Virus record (IMG/VR): IMGVR_UViG_3300042465_002080
Location: 1 to 41,734 of that record
Length of the DNA: 41,734 nt
Reading direction: 5' to 3' (one strand)
From: a virus
Position numbers and translations under genes: made by a program. Positions 1 through 41,734 of this stretch are shown here, piece after piece. A model generated the notes under the pieces. That model was not told where the DNA came from. It saw only the letters and a program-made list of their open reading frames with translations, and made no database searches. The first letter of the stretch is position 1, and each line of letters starts with the position of its first letter.

Positions 1-66
1 GGAATCACCAATAAATACGATTTTTCTAAACCGCGACTTGATGACGCATTGAAAAAAAGGGGCTAA
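1..66 (+). CDS. C-terminal fragment of the HTH protein (cut by the window edge)
   Basis: The first 22 codons encode the last 21 residues, ending DDALKKRG then TAA, of the protein found complete at 37768-38166. It is a partial gene only because the linear window opens here; on the circular genome it is intact. Confidence 0.9.
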   Translation, partial: GITNKYDFSKPRLDDALKKRG

Positions 67-67
67 T

Positions 68-481: not shown

Positions 482-2121
482 GAATACCTACCGACCCATT
501 AGAACGCGAGATGTTCTACATGGACATTATGCAAAAGTGCATGGTGTCTATGGAAAGCAGACGCACAGAATCAGAAGGCTTGCGATCCTACTACCTGTTT
601 GGTGCAGGGCCAGAGGAAGCGCCAGCGCAATATAACAAAATCTTCCCGCACATAGATCAACTATCTGCGTTTATGTATGCAGCAGATTCTACACGCTTTT
701 CAATTAACATTGGGGCAAGCGAGTCTGAAGATTATCAGCGCATGGTTCCTGTTTTAACTAAGGCGCTCTACGATTATTGGTTAAATAGCAACGCAGATCA
801 AGTCTTTGGTCAAGCACTAAACTGGTCATTTTGCTACAACACCACCTTTGTGAAACCAGTTTGGCGCAATGGTATCCACCCGTACATGGTGGAACCCGCT
901 GCCATTGGCGTGTTGCGTGAAGACGTTCCGTACACGGATCGTCAAGAAGCGATGATTCAGCGCTACTACATGACCAAGAGCGAATTGTTCTCACGGCTGT
1001 GGTCGCATCCCAAGAGAGATGAATTGGTGCGCCGCATCACCTTCTCTCAGCAAGAAACGTCTGACAATGCTTCAGGTATGGATCGTGTGATTACGTCTGC
1101 AACCAATCCTACCATCTACGGAAACATTAACTTAAACCTCACTGGCGTAAACCGCTACGTGCCTATGATTGCCGAAGACACGGTGATGATGCACGAACTT
1201 TGGATTTACGATGATGAGATTGATGACTACCTATGCGTCACGATTGCTGACCCTAACGTAGTAATCTTTGACCGTGCGTCCAAGATGATGTTCTTGGAAG
1301 GAGAAGTGCCTTTCGTTCAAATTTCTCCCAATCCGCAGTACGACTACTACTGGGGGCAATCAGAAGTGCAACGCTTGATCTTCTTGCAAGACATGAGGAA
1401 TAAGCGCACCACTCAGATCATGCAATTGCTAGACAAACAGGTAGACCCACCCACGGTATTGCAAGGTTTTGGTGGTCTATTGGATGAGAAAACCTTTGCA
1501 TTGCGCCGTGCTGGTGGCCTATTGGCTAACGATATGCCCAACGGCAAGGTCGAACAGTTTGCTCCAGACATACCAAATGACATATTTCGTGAGATTGCTG
1601 AGATTGATGCCATGTTTGCGGAGGCTTCAGGTATCGTTTCCGTTCTGCAAGGCCGGGGTGAAAGTGGTGTTCGTAGTGCTGGACACGCCTCCCAACTGGC
1701 TCGACTCGGCTCTTCACGCGCTAAAAAACGCGCTTTGGTCATTGAAAGCGCCTTGGAGAAACTGGCAACCCTCTATCTGAAGATGATGATGGTATATGAC
1801 GATACCGTTTACGTTGATGAAAAGGGTAATAAGTTTATAGCCAAGCAGTTTACCGATGATTTCACAGTGAAAGTGGACGCGCACAGTAATAGTCCAATCT
1901 TCATGGAAGACCAGCGAGAGATGGCTTTCAGCCTGTATCAGGCCGGAACTATTAGCAAAGAGCGCTTGATCGAGATGATTGACCCGCCCATGAAGCAACA
2001 ACTGCTTGAAGACTTGAAAAAACAGACTCAAACTGTACAAACGCCTCAAAGCCCTGAGATTCCTCAAGGCCAAGAGCCAATCGCACCTCAACCGGGAGAG
2101 ATAGATGGCGGCCCTGCCTAA
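478..2121 (+). CDS. Portal protein (head-tail connector)
   Basis: A 547-aa protein with the size and position of a podovirus portal, which forms the dodecameric ring at the capsid vertex through which DNA is packaged and ejected. I recognise the family by the N-terminal region with a YYLFGAG segment, the central acidic/aromatic core with DPNVVIFDRASKM, the stretch around YWGQSEVQRLIFLQDMRNK typical of the portal stem/wing, and a Gln/Pro-rich disordered tail (about residues 510-547). Downstream of terL and upstream of scaffold-like and capsid genes is the standard gene order. The start overlaps the Zn-ribbon gene by 4 nt. A second identical copy lies in the terminal repeat. Confidence 0.85.
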   Translation: MRIPTDPLEREMFYMDIMQKCMVSMESRRTESEGLRSYYLFGAGPEEAPAQYNKIFPHIDQLSAFMYAADSTRFSINIGASESEDYQRMVPVLTKALYDYWLNSNADQVFGQALNWSFCYNTTFVKPVWRNGIHPYMVEPAAIGVLREDVPYTDRQEAMIQRYYMTKSELFSRLWSHPKRDELVRRITFSQQETSDNASGMDRVITSATNPTIYGNINLNLTGVNRYVPMIAEDTVMMHELWIYDDEIDDYLCVTIADPNVVIFDRASKMMFLEGEVPFVQISPNPQYDYYWGQSEVQRLIFLQDMRNKRTTQIMQLLDKQVDPPTVLQGFGGLLDEKTFALRRAGGLLANDMPNGKVEQFAPDIPNDIFREIAEIDAMFAEASGIVSVLQGRGESGVRSAGHASQLARLGSSRAKKRALVIESALEKLATLYLKMMMVYDDTVYVDEKGNKFIAKQFTDDFTVKVDAHSNSPIFMEDQREMAFSLYQAGTISKERLIEMIDPPMKQQLLEDLKKQTQTVQTPQSPEIPQGQEPIAPQPGEIDGGPA

Positions 2122-2284
2122 CCAACCAGAAGGAAACCTCCGCACCGGCGATCAGCCCCGTGCTACGGAAACATCCATCAAAGATACTGAACGAAGCATG
2201 GGAAGAATCTCTTATTCACGCCAAGCACAGCGTGGAGGGTTCCCCAAAACTTCATACGGGACACGTTACATGAGGAAATCATAA
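2105..2284 (+). CDS. Small basic protein overlapping the portal 3' end
   Basis: A 59-aa reading frame starting MAALPNQPEGN and ending GTRYMRKS. It starts 17 nt before the end of portal, behind GGGAGAG at suitable spacing. It fills a gap that otherwise has no gene and is basic in its C-terminal half (Arg/Lys, QRGGFPKTSYGTRYM). I do not recognise a family. Overlapping start, a good ribosome site and filling the gap between structural genes support a real gene; function is unknown. Confidence 0.6.
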   Translation: MAALPNQPEGNLRTGDQPRATETSIKDTERSMGRISYSRQAQRGGFPKTSYGTRYMRKS

Positions 2285-2317
2285 GTGGCGAAAATGCAGT
2301 CACGCCCTTTTTTTTGG

Positions 2318-2347
2318 TTGACACTATAGTTTGTCTCAATTGAAAAT
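2318..2347 (+). promoter_or_regulatory. Candidate sigma70-type promoter ahead of scaffold/capsid genes
   Basis: A perfect -35 hexamer TTGACA (2318-2323) is followed after 18 bp by GAAAAT (2342-2347), a 4/6 match to the -10 consensus. It lies in the roughly 90-bp gap before the 2375 gene, where a boost of capsid-gene transcription is plausible. The same bases contain TGACACTATAG, which equals the core of the SP6-phage promoter, but no phage-type RNA polymerase gene is visible, so the host-type reading is preferred. Confidence 0.4.
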
Positions 2348-2374
2348 CCGCACATCATAGGAACAGGATTACAT

Positions 2375-2794
2375 ATGGCTGTTTCAAGCAAAGAAATGAT
2401 GGATATGCTCAAGTCTGAGCAACCACAACCGACACCTCCTCCCAACGAGCAGGCCAGCCAGACTGCGCCTATGCCATCCCCAATGACCACGCCTGAGCCA
2501 CAGTCGGGCAACATGGAGCAAGCACGTTTGAACGTGATGATGGCGCTCGATATGATCCAGAACGCCTTGCAGACCTTTGGCCTTGAGTCCGAAGAGGGCA
2601 TGGCACTTCAGGATGTTGTTGGAAAGATTACGGCAAAATTCGGAGAGCGTGAGTCTGATACCCGTCAACTCATGCCAGCAGAGATCATGAATTTGATTCA
2701 AACCTTGCCGCAGGCGGGTGGTGCAACCCCTGAAGCAAGGGCAGTCGCAGCAGCACCAGCACCCGGAACTCAACAACCTCCATTACCCATTTAA
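2375..2794 (+). CDS. Pro/Gln/Met-rich head-assembly-region protein
   Basis: A 139-aa protein with a disordered Pro/Gln-rich N-terminus (about residues 14-48), a central predicted helical part (about 49-115, including MALDMIQNALQTFGLE) and an Ala/Pro-rich tail. Low complexity at both ends with a helical middle is common in scaffold or chaperone-like phage proteins. It lies between portal and the scaffold-like gene. No family recognised; head-assembly role is inferred from location. Confidence 0.65.
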   Translation: MAVSSKEMMDMLKSEQPQPTPPPNEQASQTAPMPSPMTTPEPQSGNMEQARLNVMMALDMIQNALQTFGLESEEGMALQDVVGKITAKFGERESDTRQLMPAEIMNLIQTLPQAGGATPEARAVAAAPAPGTQQPPLPI

Positions 2795-2804
2795 GGAGAA
2801 GTAA

Positions 2805-2990
2805 ATGGAACTCTTCAAACCACGTGGCAATCTGGCTCCGCGCCGACCCACAGATAACACTCAGCAGAACGGTCAAATCGTCAACACTCCGCGCTTTGCA
2901 GAGTTTGGCGGCTTAACTGCTCCAAACAAAATTGGCCCCAAGAACAAAATGACTCTTGGTAAGCCGGGTGACGGTAAAAAAGTCATCTAA
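2805..2990 (+). CDS. Small basic protein of the head module
   Basis: A 61-aa protein, strongly basic and Pro/Asn/Gly-rich, ending GKPGDGKKVI. AAGGAG lies just upstream of the ATG. It sits 10 bp after the previous stop and 22 bp before the scaffold-like gene. No recognised domain. Composition suggests an extended or disordered peptide, possibly DNA- or capsid-binding; that is inference only. Confidence 0.6.
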   Translation: MELFKPRGNLAPRRPTDNTQQNGQIVNTPRFAEFGGLTAPNKIGPKNKMTLGKPGDGKKVI

Positions 2991-3012
2991 TTGACAGAAA
3001 GGGGCTAACAAA

Positions 3013-3543
3013 ATGTCATTAGAGAATTTATCCGTAGAAGCACAACAAGAGTTGGCAATGCTTGCAAAGACTTTGGCTGAAGACCCAAAGACGCGCAGAT
3101 CATTTCTTCAACTTACTAAGCAAGTACGCCCGGATGTTCCAATCCCTGAGATTGAAATTGAAGAGCGTACTAACTCAGTCCTTCAGCAAGCCGAAGACCG
3201 TGTTAAGTCTTTAGAAGACAAACTACGGGCTAAGGAAGCGCGGGAAGAGTTAACAAAACGCCGCGATACCCTAGTCAAGAAGGGTCTTGTCGAGTCCGAA
3301 GACGAAATCAAGGAAGTCGAGAAGATCATGGTTGAAAAAGGTATTGCAAATCACGAAACCGCTGCTGAATACCATTCGTGGATGAAGCAAGCGGCAGCGC
3401 CTACACCATCGCAGTTTCCGCAGCCCGTAATGTCGAAGTTTAATACCAAGGATTTTATGAAGAATCCTGTTGGTGCGGCACGTGACGCGGCTCATGCAGC
3501 ATTAAGCGAATTTAGGAAAAATCCGAAGCCTATTGGCTTTTGA
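3013..3543 (+). CDS. Candidate scaffolding protein
   Basis: A 176-aa highly charged helical protein directly upstream of the major capsid gene, the usual position for scaffold. Residues about 50-110 are dense in Glu/Lys/Arg with heptad-like spacing (for example VLQQAEDRVKSLEDKLRAKE), consistent with a coiled coil. A Pro/Gln linker (about 130-140) precedes a basic C-terminal helix ending EFRKNPKPIGF, like the basic capsid-binding tails of podovirus scaffolds. Assignment rests on size, composition and position, not on a sequence-family match I can verify. Confidence 0.6.
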   Translation: MSLENLSVEAQQELAMLAKTLAEDPKTRRSFLQLTKQVRPDVPIPEIEIEERTNSVLQQAEDRVKSLEDKLRAKEAREELTKRRDTLVKKGLVESEDEIKEVEKIMVEKGIANHETAAEYHSWMKQAAAPTPSQFPQPVMSKFNTKDFMKNPVGAARDAAHAALSEFRKNPKPIGF

Positions 3544-3552
3544 TTTTATTGG
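3526..3552 (+). terminator. Weak hairpin before the capsid gene
   Basis: AAGCC (3526-3530) and GGCTT (3535-3539) can form a 5-bp hairpin with a TATT loop, followed by the T-rich TTGATTTTATT. It overlaps the scaffold-like stop codon. It may reduce read-through or stabilise the capsid mRNA 5' end; it is too weak to call a full terminator with confidence. Confidence 0.22.
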
Positions 3553-3581
3553 TTTAGGGGCTTTTTTCTAGGAGATTAAAA

Positions 3582-4583
3582 ATGCCTATTGGCGGAGGAA
3601 TTATACCGGCCTCTGGGAGTCAACAATACACGGAACTTACGTATGTAACGCGCCGTGCGTTTATTCCCAAGATGGTCGTGCAGATTTACAACTCTACGCC
3701 CCTCATGGCTGCACTGATCGCCAATAGTCAAACCGCTTCCGGCGGTGTGTCATCGGTGACTGTGCCTGTCCAAGGGTCACAGTTTGTTAACGCTCAGTGG
3801 TCGGATTACTCCGGCTCCTTTGCACAGCCTAGCGTACAGCAGGGCGCTTACAACGCGGAATTCAACCTGAAACTTCTAGTTTCTCCGGTTCCTTTCCTCG
3901 GCATGGAAGGCGCAGTGCAGCAAGATTACGCCATCATCCCGTTGATCGAAGCACGTATGAACGATGCGACCAACGTAATGATGGACGCAATGGCTACCTC
4001 GCTCTACACAAATACGTCTGACACTCAGCAGTTTACGGGCTTGCCTATCGCTGTTGACTCATCGGGTACATACGGCAATATCAGCCGTAGCCAGTATTCG
4101 TGGTGGGCTTCTAAGGAATACGCTGCTGGTTCGGTTAACCCGACCCGTCAGAACGTACTCCAGTACATCTCCGGTACCGTTAAGAACTGCGCTGAAGTAC
4201 CTACTTTCGGCGTTTGCGGCTTTGGTACTTGGACGCTTCTGGCTCAAGACTACGTAGGCCAAGAACAGTACATGATTACTCCGGGTTCCGGATTTGATGC
4301 TGATGCCAATGGCCCACAGGCTGCGTTCCGCGCCCTGATGGTTGCTGGCGTTCCTATCTATCCTGATCCGTACTGCCCAGAAGGTACTCTGTACCTATTG
4401 AACACAAACTATCTGTCCATGTACATCCATGAGCAGGCTTCGTTTGCGTTCACTGGCTTTGAATCGACTCTGCCAAACTTCCAGATTGGTTACGTTGGCG
4501 CGGTTCTGATGATTGCCGAAATGGTAAGCACCAAGCCTAAGTCGATGACCAAAGTGACTGGCTACAACTCTTTGACACTGTAA
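3582..4583 (+). CDS. Major capsid protein
   Basis: A 333-aa protein with the length, position and character of an HK97-fold podovirus capsid subunit. It has an N-terminal arm of about 60 residues, a Trp/Tyr-rich region (QWSDYSG), a loop with GLPIAVDSSGTYGNISRSQ, and a C-terminal segment around STKPKSMTKVTG. It is preceded by CTAGGAGATTAAAA and followed by two decoration-like genes. It forms the icosahedral shell around DNA packaged through the portal. The fold is inferred from family resemblance and context. The first 53 bp recur at the end of the window. Confidence 0.82.
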   Translation: MPIGGGIIPASGSQQYTELTYVTRRAFIPKMVVQIYNSTPLMAALIANSQTASGGVSSVTVPVQGSQFVNAQWSDYSGSFAQPSVQQGAYNAEFNLKLLVSPVPFLGMEGAVQQDYAIIPLIEARMNDATNVMMDAMATSLYTNTSDTQQFTGLPIAVDSSGTYGNISRSQYSWWASKEYAAGSVNPTRQNVLQYISGTVKNCAEVPTFGVCGFGTWTLLAQDYVGQEQYMITPGSGFDADANGPQAAFRALMVAGVPIYPDPYCPEGTLYLLNTNYLSMYIHEQASFAFTGFESTLPNFQIGYVGAVLMIAEMVSTKPKSMTKVTGYNSLTL

Positions 4584-9012: not shown

Positions 9013-11547
9013 ATGACCGGAATCTTTCAGATTCTTCTTGCTGGGCAGGGTGCACCGACTATCCTTGCTGACTACCTTGTTGTAGCGGGTGGTGGTGGGG
9101 CATCTAGTTATGGTGCTGGCGGTGCTGGAGGTTATCGCACAAGTGCAGGGACTAGCGGCGGTGGTGCGTCTGCTGAATCATCTTTAAGTCTTGCGGTTGG
9201 AACTTCTTACATTGTAACGGTTGGCGCTGGAGGAAGTGGCGGTTCAAATGCAAATGGCAGTCAAGGTTCAAATTCTGTATTTAGCACAATTACTTCTACT
9301 GGCGGTGGTTTGGGAGGTCAGCAAGCCGGTGGAGGTGCAGGTGGCTCTGGAGGTGGTGGGGGCTATGGAGCCACAGGAAATCCAAGCGCAGGAGGTTCTG
9401 GAACCACTAATCAAGGATATGCAGGTGGTAGTGGTTTAACAGACGATGCAACATATTCTGCTGGTGGTGGAGGCGGCGGTGCTGGTGCTGCTGGAACTAA
9501 TGCTGCGTTTCAAGTGGGTGGCAACGGTGGAAACGGTGTTGCTTCATCAATCACAGGCTCATCGGTAACAAGAGCAGGTGGCGGCGCAGGTCGAACCAAC
9601 GTAGGTACTTCTGGTACTGCTGGCTCTGGAGGTGGTGGAACTGCATCAACTTCAGGGGCGGGTGGAAGTGGAACTGTAAATACTGGAGGGGGTGGAGGTT
9701 CTGGCTCCGGCATCGCCGGCGGCGGCGGCGCTGGCGGCTCTGGTGTCGTTATCATCAAAATCCCATCTACGCACTATGCCTCATTCTCATCTGGTGTAAC
9801 TTCAACTTTATCTACTGCGGTTGCTGGATACAACGTATACACAGTAACGGCTACATCTACTACTAGCGAGACTGTTACTTTCCTTGCTGGCGCACCTGTT
9901 AGCGACTTGCTAGTGGTGGCTGGTGGTGGAGGCGGTGGGCATACTAGGGGTGGTGGTGGCGGTGCTGGTGGTTATCGATCAAGCACAACCCAAGGAATCG
10001 TTTTTGGTCAGACCTACACAGTTACAGTAGGCGCTGGCGGCAATGGTTCTTCAAGTGCTACATTGCGTGGTTCTAACGGTTCTGATTCTGTATTTTCTAG
10101 CAATACTTCTGCCGGAGGTGGTGGAGGTGGGTCTGGAACTGGTCAATTTGCGGGTTCAGATGGTGGATCAGGTGGCGGTGCTGGAAATCAAAACAATACA
10201 AATGTTAGTGGAGGCACAGGAAACACGCCAAGCACTAGCCCATCTCAAGGAAGTAATGGTGGTGCATCCAATGCTTCTGGTCAAGGAGAGATTGCAGGTG
10301 GCGGAGGTGGCGGCGCAAGCGCAGTAGGAGCAACGTCATCGTCGAGTGATAACGGTGTTGCTGGAGGTGCTGGAACATCCTCATCAATCACAGGCTCAAG
10401 CGTTCCCCGTGGTGGTGGAGGTGGTTCGGGCGTTGGAAATAATGATTCTGCTACTGGCGGGACGGGCGGTGTAGGCGGAGGCGGTAATGGTGGGCAAAGA
10501 ACCACCGATAATGCAACCGCTGGAACCGTCAATACTGGCGGTGGTGGTGGAGGCGGGGGTGATAATCAACCCGGAAAAGCAGGCGGCTCTGGCATTGTCG
10601 TTATCAAAGTACCTGACAACGTAACTGCGACATTCTCTGGTGGCGTAACTTCATCTCTGTCTACTTCTGGTGGATTCAACATCTACTCTGTGACTGCGAC
10701 TAGCACGACAAGTGAGACTGTGACGTTTAATCCTAAGATTGTTGTTGACTACCTTGTAATTGCAGGTGGTGGTAGTGGAGGCGCTCAAGCGGGTGGCGGT
10801 GGTGGCGCTGGTGGATACCGTGAACTTACTGCTCAAGGCTTAACCAAAGGCACGGCTTACACAGTAACCGTTGGTGCTGGTGGTGCGGCACAATCTGCCG
10901 GAGTTGGAAATGCAGGTTCTAACTCTGTATTTTCATCTACAACATCTACTGGAGGTGGTGGTGGAGGTGGAACTGGTGCTGGTGCTGGTAATGGAGCAAA
11001 TGGAGGCTCTGGTGGTGGTGGTTCTGCTGGAGTTGGATTAACTTCTGGAGGCACAGGAACATCAGGGCAAGGAAACAACGGTGGAACTGGAGTAGGAACA
11101 ACATCTGCAAGTAATGGTTCTGGTGGTGGCGGGGGAGGTGCTAACGCAGTAGGTGTAAATGGCACGGTAGATGGTGGAACTGGTGGCGCTGGAACGGCCT
11201 CATCAATCACAGGCTCATCGGTCACCCGTGCTGGAGGTGGCGGTGGCTTTTCACGGGCTGGAACTCTTGGAAGTGGAGGCACAGGTGGGGGTGGAGACGG
11301 AGGCCGTGAGGGTGGGGCATCTCCTACTGCTGGAACCGTAAATACTGGAGGCGGCGGCGGCGGTGGATTATTTACTGGTAACTCAGGCGCTGGCGGTTCA
11401 GGCGTAGTCATTATTAAGATTCCTGATAGCGTAACCGCTACATTCTCAGGCGGTGTTACATCCTCGCTATCGACTGCGGTATCAGGATTTAAGATTTACA
11501 CCGTGACCGCTACATCAACCACATCAGAAACAGTAACTTTTAGTTAA
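9013..11547 (+). CDS. Glycine-rich triple-repeat tail adhesin
   Basis: An 844-aa protein made of three tandem units of about 278-280 residues, starting near residues 20, 298 and 578. Each unit opens with a strand like YLVVAGGGG and GGAGGYR, runs through long GGx/GGGG stretches with a conserved SSITGSSVTRAGGGG, ends with NTGGGGGG and SGVVIIKIP, and is followed by a short linker ATFSGGVTSSLST plus TVTATSTTSETVTF. Such Gly-rich regions are known in phage adhesins, where they fold as polyglycine-II helix bundles (Salmonella phage S16 gp38). It lies between two tail-fibre genes. Receptor-binding role is inference from composition and location; no strong ribosome site is visible. Confidence 0.72.
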   Translation: MTGIFQILLAGQGAPTILADYLVVAGGGGASSYGAGGAGGYRTSAGTSGGGASAESSLSLAVGTSYIVTVGAGGSGGSNANGSQGSNSVFSTITSTGGGLGGQQAGGGAGGSGGGGGYGATGNPSAGGSGTTNQGYAGGSGLTDDATYSAGGGGGGAGAAGTNAAFQVGGNGGNGVASSITGSSVTRAGGGAGRTNVGTSGTAGSGGGGTASTSGAGGSGTVNTGGGGGSGSGIAGGGGAGGSGVVIIKIPSTHYASFSSGVTSTLSTAVAGYNVYTVTATSTTSETVTFLAGAPVSDLLVVAGGGGGGHTRGGGGGAGGYRSSTTQGIVFGQTYTVTVGAGGNGSSSATLRGSNGSDSVFSSNTSAGGGGGGSGTGQFAGSDGGSGGGAGNQNNTNVSGGTGNTPSTSPSQGSNGGASNASGQGEIAGGGGGGASAVGATSSSSDNGVAGGAGTSSSITGSSVPRGGGGGSGVGNNDSATGGTGGVGGGGNGGQRTTDNATAGTVNTGGGGGGGGDNQPGKAGGSGIVVIKVPDNVTATFSGGVTSSLSTSGGFNIYSVTATSTTSETVTFNPKIVVDYLVIAGGGSGGAQAGGGGGAGGYRELTAQGLTKGTAYTVTVGAGGAAQSAGVGNAGSNSVFSSTTSTGGGGGGGTGAGAGNGANGGSGGGGSAGVGLTSGGTGTSGQGNNGGTGVGTTSASNGSGGGGGGANAVGVNGTVDGGTGGAGTASSITGSSVTRAGGGGGFSRAGTLGSGGTGGGGDGGREGGASPTAGTVNTGGGGGGGLFTGNSGAGGSGVVIIKIPDSVTATFSGGVTSSLSTAVSGFKIYTVTATSTTSETVTFS

Positions 11548-26986: not shown

Positions 26987-27214
26987 TTACTTTCCTTTCG
27001 CCAAATGATAACGGGCAAACGTCTTCCCGTTTTGTTTTACATCTTCCGTAATTATGTTATGCCCTGCCTTACGCAGGTCATCGATCCTTGCTGCCAACCT
27101 TGCACAGCCAAATAAACTCAAAGCGTTCATTGCGGTTAGGCTATTACCCTTAGTTAAATAATTCAAAATCTCTCCGTTCTGAGTGCGCTTTGTGTTCTTT
27201 GCTACCTGCTCCAA
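26987..27214 (-). CDS. Winged-helix DNA-binding protein (HTH_39-like)
   Basis: A 75-aa protein starting at TTG 27214, 11 nt after the previous stop. The pattern GEILNYLTKGNSLTAMNAL followed by CARLAARIDDLRKAGHNI matches the HTH_39 winged-helix family: two short helices, a recognition helix rich in Arg, then a wing (TFARYHL). Possibly a regulator of the recombination operon or an accessory to its nucleases. No visible strong ribosome site, so coupling is likely. Confidence 0.65.
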   Translation of the reverse strand: MEQVAKNTKRTQNGEILNYLTKGNSLTAMNALSLFGCARLAARIDDLRKAGHNIITEDVKQNGKTFARYHLAKGK

Positions 27215-31093: not shown

Positions 31094-31281
31094 TTAGCCA
31101 CCTCATCGACTATGCGCTGGATCATTGAGCAATGGTGCCGTATCTCTGTGGCTACCCCATCGATGTCTTGCCAGTTTGGTTTGTAGGCATTGCGGCTAAG
31201 TCTATTTAACTCAGTCATTAACCTATTCATCTGCACTACATGACTGCCAAGGTCAAACAACATTGGATCAGTATTTCTCAT
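31090..31281 (-). CDS. Small helical protein
   Basis: A 63-aa protein starting MRNTDPMLFDLGSHVV behind GGGGGCTGAT, the same leader as the YqaJ gene. Helical, His/Arg-rich C-terminus (ATEIRHHCSMIQRIVDEV). It overlaps the next gene by 4 nt. Unknown function. Confidence 0.6.
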   Translation of the reverse strand: MRNTDPMLFDLGSHVVQMNRLMTELNRLSRNAYKPNWQDIDGVATEIRHHCSMIQRIVDEVAK

Positions 31282-31298
31282 ATCAGCCCCCTGATTGA

Positions 31299-31484
31299 TT
31301 AGTCTAGTCTTGCTTCTTGGTCTAACTGCAATCTCCGTTCCTTGGCCTTGGTAAGTAGGTCTGCTACCTCGTTAGCCTCTTGTCTGATTCGATGCAATCT
31401 CTCAGCCAATTGACGCTCTACCACTAGGCTTTGCAGTGCTACATTCATCGCTTCTTGAATCGTATATTCACGCTGTACATTCAT
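31299..31484 (-). CDS. Small coiled-coil protein
   Basis: A 61-aa protein from ATG 31484, behind GGAGGTTAACC. It is one long charged helix with heptad-like pattern (LVVERQLAERLHRIRQEAN, LLTKAKERRLQLDQE). No catalytic motif. Could be a regulator or dimerising accessory; not recognised. Confidence 0.58.
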   Translation of the reverse strand: MNVQREYTIQEAMNVALQSLVVERQLAERLHRIRQEANEVADLLTKAKERRLQLDQEARLD

Positions 31485-31508
31485 GGTTAACCTCCGTTGA
31501 TTAGGTAT

Positions 31509-31524
31509 GTGTAAACGTCTACAC
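31509..31524. promoter_or_regulatory. Palindrome in the gap between HNH and coiled-coil genes
   Basis: GTGTAAACGTCTACAC is a near-perfect 16-bp palindrome (two mismatched positions) in the 62-bp gap upstream of the leftward coiled-coil gene. Such symmetry suits a dimeric repressor site for an internal promoter. No clear -10/-35 pair stands out beside it. Confidence 0.35.
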
Positions 31525-31546
31525 GATATGAACCGTATACCCATGT

Positions 31547-31936
31547 TTATGCACTGTCAAGAACTTTGTTGTATTTTTTTTGATTCTCTTTCTCTGATAC
31601 AACACGCAGGTTAGAGGGAACGTGTAGCCCAGACACGGTAGCGCCACGTAGGGGGTAGATATGATCGACAACATATCTTGACCCTGTGGCCTGCGTTAAA
31701 TGTACAGCCTGTAGGTAAATGGCCTTGATCTCTTGCCAATCTCCATCGGTTAGCCAATGGGGTACGCAACGGTTTGGAACCGAAACTGACCTGCCGTTTG
31801 GATGAGTCTTTTTACGCGCTGCGGTCTTGGCTTTGTGGCAGGTTTTACAGATTGAATACAGGCCATCTACGGTTGTATATCGCTGGTAAAACTCTGTTAC
31901 GTACTTAATTTCTTGGCACGACTTGCACATTTTCAT
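31547..31936 (-). CDS. HNH endonuclease with CxxC zinc site
   Basis: A 129-aa protein from ATG 31936 (AAGGAGCAGCC leader). The N-terminal zinc site is C4, C7, C30 and C33 (CKSC ... CKTC), followed by a basic linker. The HNH core is YVVDHIYPLRG (D91-H92), SNLRVV with N109 and ENQKK with N118. It cuts or nicks DNA. HNH proteins of this form occur free-standing in phages and also near packaging genes; here it is the first gene of the leftward unit, next to the candidate origin. No intron or gene interruption is seen. Confidence 0.75.
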   Translation of the reverse strand: MKMCKSCQEIKYVTEFYQRYTTVDGLYSICKTCHKAKTAARKKTHPNGRSVSVPNRCVPHWLTDGDWQEIKAIYLQAVHLTQATGSRYVVDHIYPLRGATVSGLHVPSNLRVVSEKENQKKYNKVLDSA

Positions 31937-31950
31937 GGCTGCTCCTTGGT

Positions 31951-32123
31951 TGTGGATAACCAAAGGATAACATAAGGATAACTAACTTTGGGATATATCC
32001 TATATACGTCTTATTACGGGCGTATACTATAGGACATATATTATAAATATAGAACGTATACTATACGCCCTTACCTAGATTACAAAACATATAGCCTATA
32101 GGTTTGGATTGGGGTGTGGATAA
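31951..32123. other. Candidate DnaA-dependent origin of replication
   Basis: Two perfect DnaA boxes (TGTGGATAA, reverse of TTATCCACA) lie at 31951-31959 and 32115-32123, same orientation. The first is the start of three GGATAAC repeats at 31954-31960, 31965-31971 and 31976-31982, spaced exactly 11 bp, so on one face of the helix. The AT-rich stretch between holds GGATATATCC (31991-32000), an 11-bp direct repeat CGTATACTATA (32021-32031 and 32055-32065), the inverted pair GGGCGTATA (32018-32026) and TATACGCCC (32062-32070), and CCTATAGG (32095-32102). A minus-strand TATAAT (32045-32040) may be the -10 of the leftward operon. Boxes and repeats are visible; origin function is inferred. Confidence 0.6.
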
Positions 32124-32412
32124 CTTGGGCCTCGCAGTCGGCCTACCCAACGGATCAGCAGGCGGAGTATGTGAACGTGTGAAATCCTAAATCTTAAATT
32201 TAGGACAATCGCAAAGTGCAATGCCCTAAAAACCAAATCCTGATTTTTTTTGCCATAGAAAATGCAATCTCATTTTTGGAAAACAGGGAATAGATTCAAG
32301 AAATGACATTGCGTGCAGAGCATATGCACAGGCACTATATCGGGGACGGGCCATATAAGGCCATAGTAAGGCCGCTAGACGCTAGTCTATGCCTTACCAT
32401 TAGCCGGTATGA
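32124..32412. other. Gene-free stretch with inverted repeats beside the candidate origin
   Basis: No convincing gene is seen here. TCCTAAAT-CTTAA-ATTTAGGA (32185-32205) is a perfect 8-bp inverted repeat. Two GGCCATA direct repeats (32349-32355, 32359-32365) precede a two-part hairpin at 32367-32396: TAAGGC/GCCTTA outside and TAGAC/GTCTA inside. These could be operators or a structured RNA; no promoter stands out. Confidence 0.4.
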
Positions 32413-32435
32413 AAAAGGCCCGTAGAGGGCCTTTT
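32413..32435 (-). terminator. Intrinsic terminator of the ArdC unit
   Basis: AAAAGGCCC (32413-32421), a 5-nt loop and GGGCCTTTT (32427-32435) form a 9-bp hairpin ending in T on the - strand (five T with base 32412). It follows the 32442 stop by a few bases, so it ends the leftward ArdC unit before the candidate origin. It is nearly symmetric and could also act for + transcripts. Confidence 0.85.
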
Positions 32436-32441
32436 ATTGGG

Positions 32442-32621
32442 TTATAGAATAGCCGGATCGTGAATCACTGGATCGCCATTCATCTTAGCGGCAAGAATAA
32501 CGGTTACTTCGTAAGACTTTTTTGCTTTGAATTGTTTCGCCGCTATCAATTGCGCGTCATAGGATCGCAGCGCTTCAACGGTTATTTCTTTCCCCTTGTA
32601 GAATGCAATATAGGTAAACAT
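32442..32621 (-). CDS. Small conserved protein downstream of ArdC
   Basis: A 59-aa protein from ATG 32621 (GAGAGG upstream). MFTYIAFYKGKEITVEA, then YDAQLIAAKQFKAKKSYEVT and VILAAKMNGDPVIHD give an alpha/beta pattern seen in short plasmid and phage proteins. It ends the ArdC operon. Function unknown; association with antirestriction is by position only. Confidence 0.62.
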   Translation of the reverse strand: MFTYIAFYKGKEITVEALRSYDAQLIAAKQFKAKKSYEVTVILAAKMNGDPVIHDPAIL

Positions 32622-32644
32622 AGTGAAAACCTCTCTTAGGAAAT

Positions 32645-32685
32645 GCCGGGACAATTCCCGGCCCGTTATCCCCTACCACGTAGGG
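32645..32685 (-). other. Two intercistronic hairpins
   Basis: GCCGGGA (32645-32651) pairs with TCCCGGC (32656-32662) around a 4-nt loop. CCCTAC (32671-32676) pairs with GTAGGG (32680-32685) around CAC. Both lie between ArdC and the following small gene, without U tracts. Likely mRNA processing or stability elements. Confidence 0.45.
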
Positions 32686-32706
32686 CAAGGGATAAAAGGC
32701 CGGAAA

Positions 32707-33594
32707 CTAGGCCGCTAACGGCATTTCTTCGCTAGATTCTTGCTTTGCTTTGCCGCCATTTATTAGCCAATCCATACCGGCCTGCGCTTTACCTGCCGCG
32801 CTAATAATGAATTTTTTGTCATTCTTGAGCGCTTTGAGCCATGATTCAATATAGGCCGCATGGCGTAAATCCCCGTCTAGGCCGCAATGAGCGCAAAGCA
32901 TGGCCGCGCCAAGTTCCGCGATTAGTTCCTCATAGGCGTAGGCATGATCGCCAAAGCGCTTACCCTTTTCACGATTCAAGCGTGATTCATGGCCTGTAGC
33001 ATGAATCGCCTCATGTAATAGGGTAGCGTAGTAGTTTTCCCGGCTAGAAAACTGGGCCTTTTCCGGCATATGGATCGAATCATTAGACGGGCGGAAAAAC
33101 GCCTCATTTCCGCCATGATGCAGGCCGCCGGATAGTTTCAAAGTATCGGTTAGCGCTTGTGCCTTGTCGCATGGCTCCCATGATTCGGGCGCTATCTCTT
33201 CGCGTACTGGTAGGGAAACGTCTTCGCATTGATCTAGATTGAACACGTAGTAGTGTTTAAGCATAGGCACGTGCGTTATTTGATCGGGGTTAGTCTTATC
33301 TTTTACAGCCAAGGGTTTCCAGAAAACAATGGGAGTACCCTTTTCGCCTGTTTTGATATTGCCGCCCAGTGCTTGTGCTTGTTTGAACGTAACCCATGCA
33401 TTGCTGGTAAAGGTAGAACCCATAAGGGTCAAGAATGTCCAGTTAGCGCCACGATAGACTGTACCGCTAGCAGGGTTCCATGGTTGGCCGTTGTGCTTGC
33501 CATTTCTAACGTTTTTCCATGGTTTAACCCATGGGGCAGTGCCGTTTTCTAATTCAGTAATGATCCGATCAGTAATTACTTGTGCAATGTCCAT
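32707..33594 (-). CDS. ArdC-type antirestriction protein
   Basis: A 295-aa protein from ATG 33594 (AAAGGGG upstream). The N-terminal ssDNA-binding domain of the ArdC family is recognisable: ITELENGTAPWVKPW, YRGANWTFL, WVTFKQAQALGGNIKTGEK and GTPIVFWKP. The C-terminal zincin-like domain has HEAIH (194-198), H202 and a YEELIAELGA helix carrying the likely third ligand E227. ArdC proteins protect incoming DNA from restriction, best known from plasmids. It lies in its own leftward unit next to the divergent promoter region, fitting very early expression. Confidence 0.82.
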   Translation of the reverse strand: MDIAQVITDRIITELENGTAPWVKPWKNVRNGKHNGQPWNPASGTVYRGANWTFLTLMGSTFTSNAWVTFKQAQALGGNIKTGEKGTPIVFWKPLAVKDKTNPDQITHVPMLKHYYVFNLDQCEDVSLPVREEIAPESWEPCDKAQALTDTLKLSGGLHHGGNEAFFRPSNDSIHMPEKAQFSSRENYYATLLHEAIHATGHESRLNREKGKRFGDHAYAYEELIAELGAAMLCAHCGLDGDLRHAAYIESWLKALKNDKKFIISAAGKAQAGMDWLINGGKAKQESSEEMPLAA

Positions 33595-33595
33595 G

Positions 33596-33766
33596 TTATT
33601 TGACCCCTTTAGCAAAAAAGATTGATCGAATGGCGGCATAGCGTGAAGCGCCCATGTCGCGCAGTTTCCAATAGGCATAGCGCGTGCCATATAGCGCGAT
33701 AGTGGATCTAAGCGTTAGCGGATTGCTCTCATAATTTAATGCGTGGTTTACAAGCGTTTTGTGCAT
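33596..33766 (-). CDS. 56-aa first gene of the ArdC unit
   Basis: A frame starting MHKTLVNHALNYESNPLTLR and ending RSIFFAKGVK behind a good ATAGGGGTAACAAA leader. It ends 1 nt before the ArdC start. Basic/aromatic, helical middle (YGTRYAYWKLRDMGASRYAA). A longer frame overlapping it in another phase is judged a shadow because ArdC has its own better start. Function unknown. Confidence 0.62.
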   Translation of the reverse strand: MHKTLVNHALNYESNPLTLRSTIALYGTRYAYWKLRDMGASRYAAIRSIFFAKGVK

Positions 33767-33799
33767 TTTGTTACCCCTATATATTGATTAGGAAATGTA

Positions 33800-33805
33800 A
33801 TTATA
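33800..33805 (-). promoter_or_regulatory. Candidate -10 element for the ArdC unit
   Basis: The minus strand reads TATAAT at 33805-33800, 34 bp upstream of the 56-aa gene. No good -35 is seen 16-18 bp away, so activation or an extended element may be needed. The 10-bp palindrome GCATATATGC (33811-33820) lies just upstream and could be an operator. Confidence 0.4.
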
Positions 33806-34172
33806 TAACGGCATATATGCGTAGAACGTTTACGTTTCCTATATGTCATACATTGTATTTTCTAATCTATATATGTCTTATAATAGGTGTAACCTATAGT
33901 CTATATATAGGTACTAACGGGGTTCTAGCGATATCTATGGGGATTGATCCTAATCGCGCTCCACGCGTTCAGGGAATTCCCATGCCATAGTGTGAACCGC
34001 TATGGGGTAACGCCTATGCAAGCGCTAGACGTAAACCTAAACGCATATGCGTCATGCATTGCATCGATTCGATATCGATTGATCCGCTTAAATTTGGCTT
34101 TCGATTGGGTTTCGCCCCTTGTGGATGCGCGACCCATAACGCCCCCCGCCCCAAGGAAAAATCAGGTTTTCC

Positions 34173-34194
34173 CTACACGCTATATTTCGTGTAG
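34173..34194 (+). promoter_or_regulatory. Inverted repeat upstream of the first rightward gene
   Basis: CTACACG (34173-34179) and CGTGTAG (34188-34194) form a perfect 7-bp inverted repeat around CTATATTT, 30 bp before the ATG. TATATT (34181-34186) inside could be a -10 element, though no -35 fits. Operator or 5'-UTR hairpin. Confidence 0.42.
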
Positions 34195-34223
34195 TATTTG
34201 CACATATCGTTTAAGGAGGACGT

Positions 34224-34445
34224 ATGCAACAGGTGTATGAAGTGAGTAAGGATGTGCCTATACCGCAGCCGATTAAGAGGCATAACTACCCTTATGAGCA
34301 GTTGCAGGTGGGGGAGTCGTTCTGGGTTACTGGAATCAGTATGCAGTCCCTTTGCAACTCCAATAGGAGGCAGAGTAAGCGGTTGGAGAGGAAGTTTATC
34401 TGCCGTAAGGAGAATGACGGGGTTAGGGTCTGGAGGGTGTCATGA
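34224..34445 (+). CDS. Small conserved protein (DVPIP type)
   Basis: A 73-aa protein behind AAGGAGG. The pattern DVPIPQPIKRHNYPYEQLQV, GESFWV, then RLERKFICRKENDGVRVWRV is a short recurrent family of phages. First gene of the rightward unit, overlapping the next start. Probably an early small protein; function unknown. Confidence 0.68.
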   Translation: MQQVYEVSKDVPIPQPIKRHNYPYEQLQVGESFWVTGISMQSLCNSNRRQSKRLERKFICRKENDGVRVWRVS

Positions 34446-37767: not shown

Positions 37768-38166
37768 ATGGATACGGTTCTGACTAAACAAGACATCATC
37801 CGCAGGCTTGAGGCCATGCGCTCTAAACGTAAGCGCGGATTTACCATGCGTATGTTCGCTTCCTTTGCCGCCATAGGCTATCGGCACATGGAATCCATAA
37901 CCCGTGACGGATCAAGCACCTTTACTGAACTGACTCAGCGCAAACTAAGTAAGGCGCTCCTAGCCTTGGAAAAAGGCGAGGCTGGCCCAAGAATAGACAT
38001 TCTGGGGCGCAAGTTTATTGACTACCACCCAAGGGCTAAACCAGTTTTGAAGCGCGGGATGGGGATAGAAATGACCCCCTTGGGCATCAAAATGAAGGTA
38101 GGAATCACCAATAAATACGATTTTTCTAAACCGCGACTTGATGACGCATTGAAAAAAAGGGGCTAA
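37768..38166 (+). CDS. HTH protein next to terL (possible small terminase)
   Basis: A 132-aa basic protein. Residues about 20-70 look like a helix-turn-helix: FTMRMFASFAAIGYRHMESI, then TELTQRKLSKALLALEKGE. It is followed by a basic Pro/Lys/Gly tail that resembles flexible C-termini of small terminases. It sits between terL and the Zn-ribbon/portal genes. A small-terminase role is possible but it lies after terL rather than before, so a DNA-binding accessory is equally likely. Confidence 0.55.
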   Translation: MDTVLTKQDIIRRLEAMRSKRKRGFTMRMFASFAAIGYRHMESITRDGSSTFTELTQRKLSKALLALEKGEAGPRIDILGRKFIDYHPRAKPVLKRGMGIEMTPLGIKMKVGITNKYDFSKPRLDDALKKRG

Positions 38167-38167
38167 T

Positions 38168-38581
38168 ATGGCAGTGATGAACGACTATAAGTGTCCGGCT
38201 CACGGGTACTTTGAATCGCGTGAAGCGGTATGTCCTCATGGATGTACCGATGTACAAGTGGTTTTCTTGCAGCCTGTAGGTATGACAAGTGATCGTACCA
38301 AGGGTAGCGATAAGACCCTGAAACAACTTGCACTGGACTTTAAGATGAGCGATGTGAAGTCTGTCAAACAAGGCGAAGCACAACCACCACGGTTTGCTAA
38401 ACCAGATAATCCGTTTGCTCCGCGATGGGGTTCTCCGGGTGATCTTGGCGGCTTTAACTTGCGCTCTGTCGGAGGCGAAAACGTATCTGGCATTGGAGCA
38501 GTGAAAGAAGGATCAAGACTTACGGGGCCGCGTGTTGGCAGTTATGTTGCTGACCATCAAAACCTAAAGATTGACAAATGA
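38168..38581 (+). CDS. Zn-ribbon-like protein (repeat copy)
   Basis: Identical to 68-481. Confidence 0.7.
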   Translation: MAVMNDYKCPAHGYFESREAVCPHGCTDVQVVFLQPVGMTSDRTKGSDKTLKQLALDFKMSDVKSVKQGEAQPPRFAKPDNPFAPRWGSPGDLGGFNLRSVGGENVSGIGAVKEGSRLTGPRVGSYVADHQNLKIDK

Positions 38582-40221
38582 GAATACCTACCGACCCATT
38601 AGAACGCGAGATGTTCTACATGGACATTATGCAAAAGTGCATGGTGTCTATGGAAAGCAGACGCACAGAATCAGAAGGCTTGCGATCCTACTACCTGTTT
38701 GGTGCAGGGCCAGAGGAAGCGCCAGCGCAATATAACAAAATCTTCCCGCACATAGATCAACTATCTGCGTTTATGTATGCAGCAGATTCTACACGCTTTT
38801 CAATTAACATTGGGGCAAGCGAGTCTGAAGATTATCAGCGCATGGTTCCTGTTTTAACTAAGGCGCTCTACGATTATTGGTTAAATAGCAACGCAGATCA
38901 AGTCTTTGGTCAAGCACTAAACTGGTCATTTTGCTACAACACCACCTTTGTGAAACCAGTTTGGCGCAATGGTATCCACCCGTACATGGTGGAACCCGCT
39001 GCCATTGGCGTGTTGCGTGAAGACGTTCCGTACACGGATCGTCAAGAAGCGATGATTCAGCGCTACTACATGACCAAGAGCGAATTGTTCTCACGGCTGT
39101 GGTCGCATCCCAAGAGAGATGAATTGGTGCGCCGCATCACCTTCTCTCAGCAAGAAACGTCTGACAATGCTTCAGGTATGGATCGTGTGATTACGTCTGC
39201 AACCAATCCTACCATCTACGGAAACATTAACTTAAACCTCACTGGCGTAAACCGCTACGTGCCTATGATTGCCGAAGACACGGTGATGATGCACGAACTT
39301 TGGATTTACGATGATGAGATTGATGACTACCTATGCGTCACGATTGCTGACCCTAACGTAGTAATCTTTGACCGTGCGTCCAAGATGATGTTCTTGGAAG
39401 GAGAAGTGCCTTTCGTTCAAATTTCTCCCAATCCGCAGTACGACTACTACTGGGGGCAATCAGAAGTGCAACGCTTGATCTTCTTGCAAGACATGAGGAA
39501 TAAGCGCACCACTCAGATCATGCAATTGCTAGACAAACAGGTAGACCCACCCACGGTATTGCAAGGTTTTGGTGGTCTATTGGATGAGAAAACCTTTGCA
39601 TTGCGCCGTGCTGGTGGCCTATTGGCTAACGATATGCCCAACGGCAAGGTCGAACAGTTTGCTCCAGACATACCAAATGACATATTTCGTGAGATTGCTG
39701 AGATTGATGCCATGTTTGCGGAGGCTTCAGGTATCGTTTCCGTTCTGCAAGGCCGGGGTGAAAGTGGTGTTCGTAGTGCTGGACACGCCTCCCAACTGGC
39801 TCGACTCGGCTCTTCACGCGCTAAAAAACGCGCTTTGGTCATTGAAAGCGCCTTGGAGAAACTGGCAACCCTCTATCTGAAGATGATGATGGTATATGAC
39901 GATACCGTTTACGTTGATGAAAAGGGTAATAAGTTTATAGCCAAGCAGTTTACCGATGATTTCACAGTGAAAGTGGACGCGCACAGTAATAGTCCAATCT
40001 TCATGGAAGACCAGCGAGAGATGGCTTTCAGCCTGTATCAGGCCGGAACTATTAGCAAAGAGCGCTTGATCGAGATGATTGACCCGCCCATGAAGCAACA
40101 ACTGCTTGAAGACTTGAAAAAACAGACTCAAACTGTACAAACGCCTCAAAGCCCTGAGATTCCTCAAGGCCAAGAGCCAATCGCACCTCAACCGGGAGAG
40201 ATAGATGGCGGCCCTGCCTAA
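38578..40221 (+). CDS. Portal protein (repeat copy)
   Basis: Identical to 478-2121. Confidence 0.85.
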   Translation: MRIPTDPLEREMFYMDIMQKCMVSMESRRTESEGLRSYYLFGAGPEEAPAQYNKIFPHIDQLSAFMYAADSTRFSINIGASESEDYQRMVPVLTKALYDYWLNSNADQVFGQALNWSFCYNTTFVKPVWRNGIHPYMVEPAAIGVLREDVPYTDRQEAMIQRYYMTKSELFSRLWSHPKRDELVRRITFSQQETSDNASGMDRVITSATNPTIYGNINLNLTGVNRYVPMIAEDTVMMHELWIYDDEIDDYLCVTIADPNVVIFDRASKMMFLEGEVPFVQISPNPQYDYYWGQSEVQRLIFLQDMRNKRTTQIMQLLDKQVDPPTVLQGFGGLLDEKTFALRRAGGLLANDMPNGKVEQFAPDIPNDIFREIAEIDAMFAEASGIVSVLQGRGESGVRSAGHASQLARLGSSRAKKRALVIESALEKLATLYLKMMMVYDDTVYVDEKGNKFIAKQFTDDFTVKVDAHSNSPIFMEDQREMAFSLYQAGTISKERLIEMIDPPMKQQLLEDLKKQTQTVQTPQSPEIPQGQEPIAPQPGEIDGGPA

Positions 40222-40384
40222 CCAACCAGAAGGAAACCTCCGCACCGGCGATCAGCCCCGTGCTACGGAAACATCCATCAAAGATACTGAACGAAGCATG
40301 GGAAGAATCTCTTATTCACGCCAAGCACAGCGTGGAGGGTTCCCCAAAACTTCATACGGGACACGTTACATGAGGAAATCATAA
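40205..40384 (+). CDS. Small basic protein (repeat copy)
   Basis: Identical to 2105-2284. Confidence 0.6.
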   Translation: MAALPNQPEGNLRTGDQPRATETSIKDTERSMGRISYSRQAQRGGFPKTSYGTRYMRKS

Positions 40385-40417
40385 GTGGCGAAAATGCAGT
40401 CACGCCCTTTTTTTTGG

Positions 40418-40447
40418 TTGACACTATAGTTTGTCTCAATTGAAAAT
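40418..40447 (+). promoter_or_regulatory. Candidate promoter (repeat copy)
   Basis: Identical to 2318-2347. Confidence 0.4.
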
Positions 40448-40474
40448 CCGCACATCATAGGAACAGGATTACAT

Positions 40475-40894
40475 ATGGCTGTTTCAAGCAAAGAAATGAT
40501 GGATATGCTCAAGTCTGAGCAACCACAACCGACACCTCCTCCCAACGAGCAGGCCAGCCAGACTGCGCCTATGCCATCCCCAATGACCACGCCTGAGCCA
40601 CAGTCGGGCAACATGGAGCAAGCACGTTTGAACGTGATGATGGCGCTCGATATGATCCAGAACGCCTTGCAGACCTTTGGCCTTGAGTCCGAAGAGGGCA
40701 TGGCACTTCAGGATGTTGTTGGAAAGATTACGGCAAAATTCGGAGAGCGTGAGTCTGATACCCGTCAACTCATGCCAGCAGAGATCATGAATTTGATTCA
40801 AACCTTGCCGCAGGCGGGTGGTGCAACCCCTGAAGCAAGGGCAGTCGCAGCAGCACCAGCACCCGGAACTCAACAACCTCCATTACCCATTTAA
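40475..40894 (+). CDS. Pro/Gln-rich protein (repeat copy)
   Basis: Identical to 2375-2794. Confidence 0.65.
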   Translation: MAVSSKEMMDMLKSEQPQPTPPPNEQASQTAPMPSPMTTPEPQSGNMEQARLNVMMALDMIQNALQTFGLESEEGMALQDVVGKITAKFGERESDTRQLMPAEIMNLIQTLPQAGGATPEARAVAAAPAPGTQQPPLPI

Positions 40895-40904
40895 GGAGAA
40901 GTAA

Positions 40905-41090
40905 ATGGAACTCTTCAAACCACGTGGCAATCTGGCTCCGCGCCGACCCACAGATAACACTCAGCAGAACGGTCAAATCGTCAACACTCCGCGCTTTGCA
41001 GAGTTTGGCGGCTTAACTGCTCCAAACAAAATTGGCCCCAAGAACAAAATGACTCTTGGTAAGCCGGGTGACGGTAAAAAAGTCATCTAA
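40905..41090 (+). CDS. Small basic head-module protein (repeat copy)
   Basis: Identical to 2805-2990. Confidence 0.6.
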   Translation: MELFKPRGNLAPRRPTDNTQQNGQIVNTPRFAEFGGLTAPNKIGPKNKMTLGKPGDGKKVI

Positions 41091-41112
41091 TTGACAGAAA
41101 GGGGCTAACAAA

Positions 41113-41643
41113 ATGTCATTAGAGAATTTATCCGTAGAAGCACAACAAGAGTTGGCAATGCTTGCAAAGACTTTGGCTGAAGACCCAAAGACGCGCAGAT
41201 CATTTCTTCAACTTACTAAGCAAGTACGCCCGGATGTTCCAATCCCTGAGATTGAAATTGAAGAGCGTACTAACTCAGTCCTTCAGCAAGCCGAAGACCG
41301 TGTTAAGTCTTTAGAAGACAAACTACGGGCTAAGGAAGCGCGGGAAGAGTTAACAAAACGCCGCGATACCCTAGTCAAGAAGGGTCTTGTCGAGTCCGAA
41401 GACGAAATCAAGGAAGTCGAGAAGATCATGGTTGAAAAAGGTATTGCAAATCACGAAACCGCTGCTGAATACCATTCGTGGATGAAGCAAGCGGCAGCGC
41501 CTACACCATCGCAGTTTCCGCAGCCCGTAATGTCGAAGTTTAATACCAAGGATTTTATGAAGAATCCTGTTGGTGCGGCACGTGACGCGGCTCATGCAGC
41601 ATTAAGCGAATTTAGGAAAAATCCGAAGCCTATTGGCTTTTGA
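41113..41643 (+). CDS. Candidate scaffolding protein (repeat copy)
   Basis: Identical to 3013-3543. Confidence 0.6.
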   Translation: MSLENLSVEAQQELAMLAKTLAEDPKTRRSFLQLTKQVRPDVPIPEIEIEERTNSVLQQAEDRVKSLEDKLRAKEAREELTKRRDTLVKKGLVESEDEIKEVEKIMVEKGIANHETAAEYHSWMKQAAAPTPSQFPQPVMSKFNTKDFMKNPVGAARDAAHAALSEFRKNPKPIGF

Positions 41644-41681
41644 TTTTATTGGTTTAGGGGCTTTTTTCTAGGAGATTAAAA

Positions 41682-41734
41682 ATGCCTATTGGCGGAGGAA
41701 TTATACCGGCCTCTGGGAGTCAACAATACACGGA
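41682..41734 (+). CDS. Major capsid protein, 5' fragment (cut by window edge)
   Basis: The first 53 bp of the capsid gene, identical to 3582-3634; truncated only by the end of the window. Confidence 0.9.
   Translation, partial: MPIGGGIIPASGSQQYT

Follow-up and report, generated by a model that had tools for sequence, protein, structure and literature searches.

The chromosomal origins (oriC) of E. coli, H. pylori and B. subtilis carry consensus DnaA boxes in a head-to-tail array with 2–3 bp between the 9-mers, strong boxes beside degenerate ones, and an adjoining weak AT-rich duplex. DnaA boxes are also combined with an unwinding region on mobile replicons, as in the iteron origins of the plasmids P1, RK2, and pSC101; box orientation matters in RK2, and P1 has two box arrays (excerpt of PMC4980987). 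A phage genome has been established as an oriC minichromosome in the lambda-asn transducing phages (excerpt of PMC5835720), lambda itself relying on its own O and P proteins (excerpt of PMC3640518). For phage vB_PseuGesM_254, Ori-Finder predicted DnaA boxes by an AT-rich stretch of the genome (excerpt of PMC11512268). The excerpt of PMC12371093, on DnaA titration, makes no mention of phages, and the literature covered, with few subscription papers among it, yielded no report of a phage family that lacks an initiator gene and relies on a DnaA array.

Here we describe a module of DnaA boxes in a 41,734-nucleotide stretch of viral DNA (IMG/VR record IMGVR_UViG_3300042465_002080, positions 1 to 41,734), referred to below as the window. 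The box module is real and conserved in relatives. A host-DnaA-dependent replication origin is the most likely single reading, although we regard the odds for it as even.

Architecture of the DnaA-box module

The 9-mer TGTGGATAA, which reads TTATCCACA on the minus strand, starts at 31951 and again at 32115, in the same orientation (Table 1). These are the only perfect TTATCCACA boxes in the 38,100-b circle, compared with 0.2–0.3 expected on both strands. As the initial annotation had stated, they enclose AT-rich DNA, namely 155 bp with an A+T content of 66% (genome, 52%). Its second observation, three GGATAAC units in register, also holds: the units start at 31954, 31965, and 31976, in steps of exactly 11 bp. 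Because GGATAAC is the sole 7-mer of the genome present three times at one equal step (steps of 8–39 bp scanned) and is conserved in relatives, a chance repeat was rejected. The window contains a DnaA-box cluster above chance, and its head-to-tail boxes, one perfect and two degenerate units, lie ∼2 bp apart as in oriC-type origins. A 2-bp gap between boxes is optimal for the DnaA filament (excerpt of PMC8235120), which supports a role as an origin.

Table 1. Features of the module and its surroundings (positions in the window)
Feature	Position	Strand	Remark
Small, probably helical protein u31299	31299..31484	-	First gene past promoter-like site; helicity judged from sequence
Promoter-like site TTGACA-N17-TACGGT	31532..31560	-	Precedes u31299; array 390 bp away; -35 perfect, -10 poor
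HNH/endonuclease VII-like gene	31547..31936	-	ATG 14 bp past perfect DnaA box 31951-31959
Perfect DnaA box TTATCCACA	31951..31959	-	Array side, nearest hnh gene
Degenerate DnaA box TTATCCTTT	31962..31970	-	GGATAAC core 31965-31971; 11 bp from perfect box
Degenerate DnaA box TTATCCTTA	31973..31981	-	GGATAAC core 31976-31982; next 11-bp step
TATAG/CTATA-rich, palindrome-rich low-stability block	31983..32114	.	Candidate unwinding element
Perfect DnaA box TTATCCACA, far box	32115..32123	-	Across block from array
Second TATAG-rich island	33748..33938	.	Upstream of ardC; genome's least stable stretch; no DnaA boxes

An adjacent region of low stability, a further oriC-type feature, is present as well. 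At a length of 50 or 100 bp, only one piece of the genome is less stable than the inter-box duplex, and the standing of the block among the two weakest duplex pieces argues for an origin; that the boxless island upstream of ardC is weaker still argues against one. The inter-box DNA had been noted as palindrome-rich. An inverted repeat in it (32015–32042/32046–32073) is 79% complementary, whereas the stretch folded as a single strand barely beats shuffled sequences (z −1.44; 16 of 200 shuffles equal).

Two further hallmarks of origins speak against this role. DnaA-trios, read in the customary strand convention of the element, were sought next to the far box only, with a run defined as at least three trios within 16 bp of the box. 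No such run occurs in any of 18 loci; the longest has two trios, and the mean of 1.7 lies below that of shuffles (2.6), which weakens the case for an origin. The trio rule itself is given in excerpts of PMC8287927 and PMC6669920. A GC-skew switch is likewise absent at the array: the minimum that the initial annotation would have placed there is not found, and the curve has its extremes at 8.7 and 24.9 kb. As skew mostly tracks gene strand, it is a weak origin test in a small phage. A large rightward ORF (9013–11547; G-over-C skew ∼0.24, ∼54% GC) has a heavy weight on the skew curve.

Gene context and replication genes

The 41,734-b record ends in an exact 3,634-b repeat (1–3634 = 38101–41734), which makes the 38.1-kb circular genome assumed in the initial annotation a fair reading. 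The repeat may stem from such a circle read beyond its own start or from genuine terminal redundancy. Rightward genes serve packaging, structure, and lysis. Early genes, all leftward, occupy the stretch between 33.7 and 25.3 kb in the order ardC, small ORF, array and block, HNH, u31299, u31090, epimerase, 251-aa ORF, and YqaJ exonuclease, followed by a possible Rad52-like annealing protein (Pfam match below cut-off, E 0.023), an HTH_39 protein (26987–27214; Pfam), SSB, and RusA.

No polymerase, primase, helicase, initiator, or loader was recognised among the chosen ORFs of the window (58 compared with PHROGs and 56 with Pfam; the best 25 of 41 PHROG families and the best 25 of 26 Pfam families considered), the first four having already been reported as missing. 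Weak Pfam matches, such as those to AAA_29 (0.017) and XPB_C (0.036), were not taken for replication genes. An Rfam search returned 0 matches, and a nucleotide search returned no match among named phages. For host assignment, YqaJ had no relative among genome contigs, and TerL pointed to eight MAG contigs with conflicting phylum labels.

Among 16 family records, three of them shorter than 26 kb and probably incomplete, none matched DnaB_C, IstB/DnaC, Bac_DnaA, or Rep_3 (PF01051), and none matched Phage_rep_O (PF04492) above cut-off; a single sub-cut-off Phage_rep_O match (E 6.7e-4) was found in the record of L229. The 14 control genomes matched DnaB_C (14), IstB/DnaC (13), Bac_DnaA (13), Rep_3 (2), and Phage_rep_O (2). 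That no initiator, helicase, or loader exceeded the cut-off in the 16 records supports recruitment of the host machinery at an origin. In array-less relatives, the search for an initiator gave weak leads only: besides the Phage_rep_O match, L225/L229 and the L237/L240 clade have winged-helix genes that were not found in array loci.

Some relatives code for a clamp-like protein. The central domain of DNA polymerase III beta was detected in L225 and L265 (Pfam), and the L225 protein also matches solved clamps. Similar ORFs occur in L004, L072/L205, L229, and L261, with none in the window. The early-region clamp-like ORFs of L225 (4186–4821), L229 (4438–5142), and L265 (1595–2221) comprise 208–234 aa.

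Conservation of the array in relatives

Close relatives were found via the HNH protein and the 251-aa ORF, and a YqaJ alignment search added loci, the best 80 of at least 574 relatives being kept. Relatives possess 2–7 perfect boxes at the same place, nearly all in one orientation. Two close perfect boxes occur in L070, three in L074/L075, and six in L077 and L078/L203, each locus having one far box in addition. The three boxes of L074/L075 follow in steps of 11 and 12 bp where the window has 11 and 11, and in L069 and L004 the GTTATCC core is retained, as are both 11-bp steps, with different intervening letters. Since relatives have perfect boxes at these positions, the inner units of the window are read as decayed DnaA boxes. 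Throughout the family, 101 of 103 clustered boxes share one orientation, and close boxes follow each other in steps of 11 bp (15 times), 12 bp (25 times), or 20 bp (7 times), the 11- and 12-bp steps representing ordered boxes ∼2 bp apart. Upstream of yqaJ, 83 boxes were counted against 2.2 expected, in sequences that are related and not independent.

The repeats might instead be bound by another phage or host protein that prefers TTATCCACA-like sites, given that a helix-turn-helix protein is coded nearby and that binding of DnaA to the array is putative. However, the sites match the DnaA consensus letter-perfectly in many relatives, and 11-bp steps are as described for DnaA filaments (excerpt of PMC8235120), which leaves this explanation very improbable.

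Presence of the array follows YqaJ identity. When the upstream sequence of yqaJ extended to 3,300 bases or more, a cluster of at least two boxes within 320 bp was found in 13 of 13 loci at ≥80% identity (the window and its near twin L202 included), in the single locus at 60–79%, in 9 of 11 loci at 50–59%, and in 2 of 27 loci at 44–49%, one of the latter (L262) being a pair in opposite orientation. Short-upstream loci (L076, L220, L227, L230, L232, L236, L266, L268, and L277) were left out of these bins, and near-identical phages were counted separately (L202 and the window; L074/L075, L231/L232, and L228/L230 with identical YqaJ). The array is missing from 27 of the 52 loci, 25 of them at 44–49% identity. 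Recruitment of DnaA is therefore not family-wide, and relatives manage without an array, which weakens the origin proposed in the initial annotation; its layout, on the other hand, proved to be conserved, with perfect boxes in relatives.

In a quick 83-row tree of YqaJ, the state of the array changes at least three times. That three changes suffice also weakens the case. Within a 44-row clade, every scored row but L225 and L229 has the array, and it recurs in the A+T-rich L265 group; scoring is biased in that short loci were scored only when the array was present. L239, L248, L259, L260, L264, L067, and L071 are absent from the tree. L067 starts at a contig end, and its array lies at the opposite end of its record. 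Two named relatives from Manatee Spring, MW202753 and MW202825 (TerL 72–73% and YqaJ 46–47% identity), share synteny; neither has an array, and no helicase, polymerase, or initiator is annotated in them.

The initial annotation had suggested looking for the layout upstream of HNH genes. It is conserved in relatives, but two perfect boxes were found in 0 of 60 distant HNH loci (L006–L065), and the layout was rejected as a feature of the HNH gene.

The boxes are concentrated in the module. A far box lies 133–279 bp from the array in 21 of the 32 array loci listed. Eight array-bearing records of 36.6–41.7 kb (the window and G001–G007) hold 23 of their 28 perfect boxes inside the module, which supports an origin; the pattern read backwards as a control gave 3 matches in the same records, and five array-less records have 0, 1, 2, 1, and 2 scattered boxes. 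These figures bear on a decoy function, in which the array would titrate host DnaA and halt initiation on the host chromosome. There is precedent in datA, which titrates DnaA with two consensus boxes among close degenerate ones (excerpt of PMC5835720). The window, however, has two perfect boxes only, just 5 of the 28 boxes in the eight records lie outside the module, and a decoy needs neither a far box nor a low-stability block. The module boxes do not look like dispersed titration sites, and we consider a decoy improbable.

The block, TATAG islands, and iteron-like repeats

The block between array and far box exists as several sequence types. One type is common to the window, L069, L004, L070, L074, L075, L078, and L208, a second occurs in L072, L077, and L079, and further types are found in L068 and more distant loci. 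CCTATA/TATAGG is enriched ∼24-fold in blocks and present in 19 of 22. Array-bearing relatives often have two TATAG islands, and array-less relatives often retain one. Because of this distribution and of the weaker box-free island, the block may serve transcription or be bound by an as yet unrecognised phage protein. The ardC-side island (33748–33938) is a possible second regulatory or origin element.

In some relatives, iteron-like repeats stand beside the array. Six 17-bp repeats abut three DnaA boxes in L219 (2874–2989), and 18-bp repeats occur in L211 and L215. They hint at a phage initiator and an origin of iteron type, and they weaken the case for host DnaA as the initiator. The module would then be the origin of an unrecognised phage-coded initiator acting on TATAG or iteron-like repeats, with the DnaA boxes being accessory, as in iteron plasmids. 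Enrichment of CCTATA/TATAGG in the blocks and retention of a TATAG island in many array-less relatives are consistent with such an initiator; small proteins without an assigned role, such as the HTH_39 protein and u31299, could be considered for it, as could the product behind the sub-cut-off Phage_rep_O match of L229. Against it stand the 16 records without a Rep_3 match or a Phage_rep_O match over cut-off, and the window itself, which has no iteron row and only two-copy repeats in its block. We judge a phage-coded initiator of this kind to be rather unlikely.

The promoter-like site

An array of phased boxes upstream of a leftward early promoter could also serve transcription. DnaA would act as a transcription factor, the early operon would be switched on or off by the amount or nucleotide state of DnaA in the host, and replication would start elsewhere. 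A TTGACA-type match starts 6–87 bp past the last box in 22 of the 32 array loci listed, and several of these matches include a perfect TATAAT; both TATAG islands are located upstream of leftward early genes. Because the array adjoins a promoter-like site in most array loci, a transcriptional role is conceivable, and the case for an origin is weakened.

In other loci, the array and the promoter-like site are apart. The match is 168–542 bp away in 7 of the 32 loci, and none was found in 3. The HNH gene separates the two in the window, L069, and L004, where the array is kept although the site is 390 bp off, and the match is also distant in L228 and L230 (463) and in L268 (542). The −10 element of the site in the window is poor, and a stricter promoter and terminator scan (31200–34300), which gave three promoters and one terminator where shuffles gave more, did not report the site. 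Moreover, a simple activator needs no far box across the block. That array and block remain joined despite a distant promoter-like site favors them as a functional unit and supports an origin, short of proving it. Control of transcription by DnaA appears unlikely to us, though slightly less so than a phage-coded initiator.

The small protein u31299

The u31299 family is homologous to the small-ORF family of the clade with 50–59% YqaJ identity (HHalign probability 94.8), and the L265 group has a third, unrelated small ORF past its array. One or other of these small ORFs comes after the array in most array loci. Family members include the window protein and that of L231 (8330–8500). Small gene and array occur together in 29 rows, the array alone in 3, the small gene alone in 0, and neither in 28, with 23 rows unscored for one or both; among the unscored, the small gene accompanies a single perfect box in both L233 and L234. 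These rows contain three independent contrasts only (p 0.25), so that a link between small gene and array is not established. The u31299 family is nevertheless a candidate DnaA partner.

Box pairs in other viral contigs

Head-to-tail pairs of the form TTATCCACA-N2-3-TTATCCACA were found in at least 120 IMG/VR stretches (L080–L199), compared with 8 for a reversed-letter control. Gene checks on 50 of these contigs, mostly larger ones, gave no DnaA match over cut-off and one below it. Contamination by host oriC is hence unlikely as the source of the pairs, and both results support viral origins built on DnaA boxes. Close box pairs look common in viral contigs and are not explained by host dnaA-linked origins in the sample. 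However, convergent pairs also number at least 120, so that pair abundance does not single out head-to-tail arrays, and DnaB in 13 of the 50 contigs indicates that array carriers are not all initiator-poor in the same way; both points weaken the argument. YqaJ of the window's family was found at four of the 120 pair loci listed (L133, L154, L175, and L195). Head-to-tail pairs, mostly without this YqaJ family, are a possible marker of viral origins.

Discussion

The module combines ordered DnaA boxes with a weak duplex in a phage family in which no initiator, replicative helicase, or loader was recognised among the ORFs and records scanned. At a host-DnaA-dependent origin, host DnaA would bind the head-to-tail row and the far box and form an oligomer. 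This oligomer would open the TATAG-rich block of low stability between array and far box, and the host helicase could then be loaded at the opened block. The YqaJ exonuclease, the possible Rad52-like annealing protein, SSB, and RusA would probably convert the first copies to concatemers. Control of transcription and an unrecognised phage initiator are serious rivals of such an origin.

We tentatively propose, with slightly less confidence than we place in the window's origin itself, that an apparently virulent phage family without a recognisable initiator or replicative helicase replicates from an oriC mimic, and that other branches have swapped the module. The mimic would be a plug-in of one to six close boxes and a weak TATAG block, often with a far box, and perhaps with a small phage protein helping. 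If so, phages in nature, and not laboratory constructs only, would start replication by means of host DnaA alone, and phage replication would be tied to the host DnaA-ATP cycle. The natural array variants (1–6 close boxes; 11-, 12-, and 20-bp steps) could then be used for testing the assembly rules of the orisome, and a DnaA array could mark origins in unannotated viral contigs.

Compared with oriC of E. coli, H. pylori, and B. subtilis, the candidate module shares the box consensus, the head-to-tail array and its spacing, the degenerate neighbors of strong boxes, and the weak duplex, but the genome that carries it is that of a phage, no dnaA was recognised there, and no DnaA-trio run lies past the far box. 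It resembles the iteron plasmid origins in pairing DnaA boxes with an unwinding region on a mobile replicon, whereas the phage family lacks a recognised Rep gene, and clear iterons are missing from the window and approached by the 17-bp repeats of L219. Phage vB_PseuGesM_254 is similar in its predicted boxes; it differs in having its own primase and DNA polymerase A, and the excerpt of PMC11512268 gives no comparative support for its boxes. The lambda-oriC minichromosomes are a laboratory construct with a chromosomal oriC region, to which the module would be a natural counterpart. Like datA (excerpt of PMC5835720), finally, the module has consensus boxes among close degenerate ones; in contrast to this host titration site, it also comprises a far box and a weak block.
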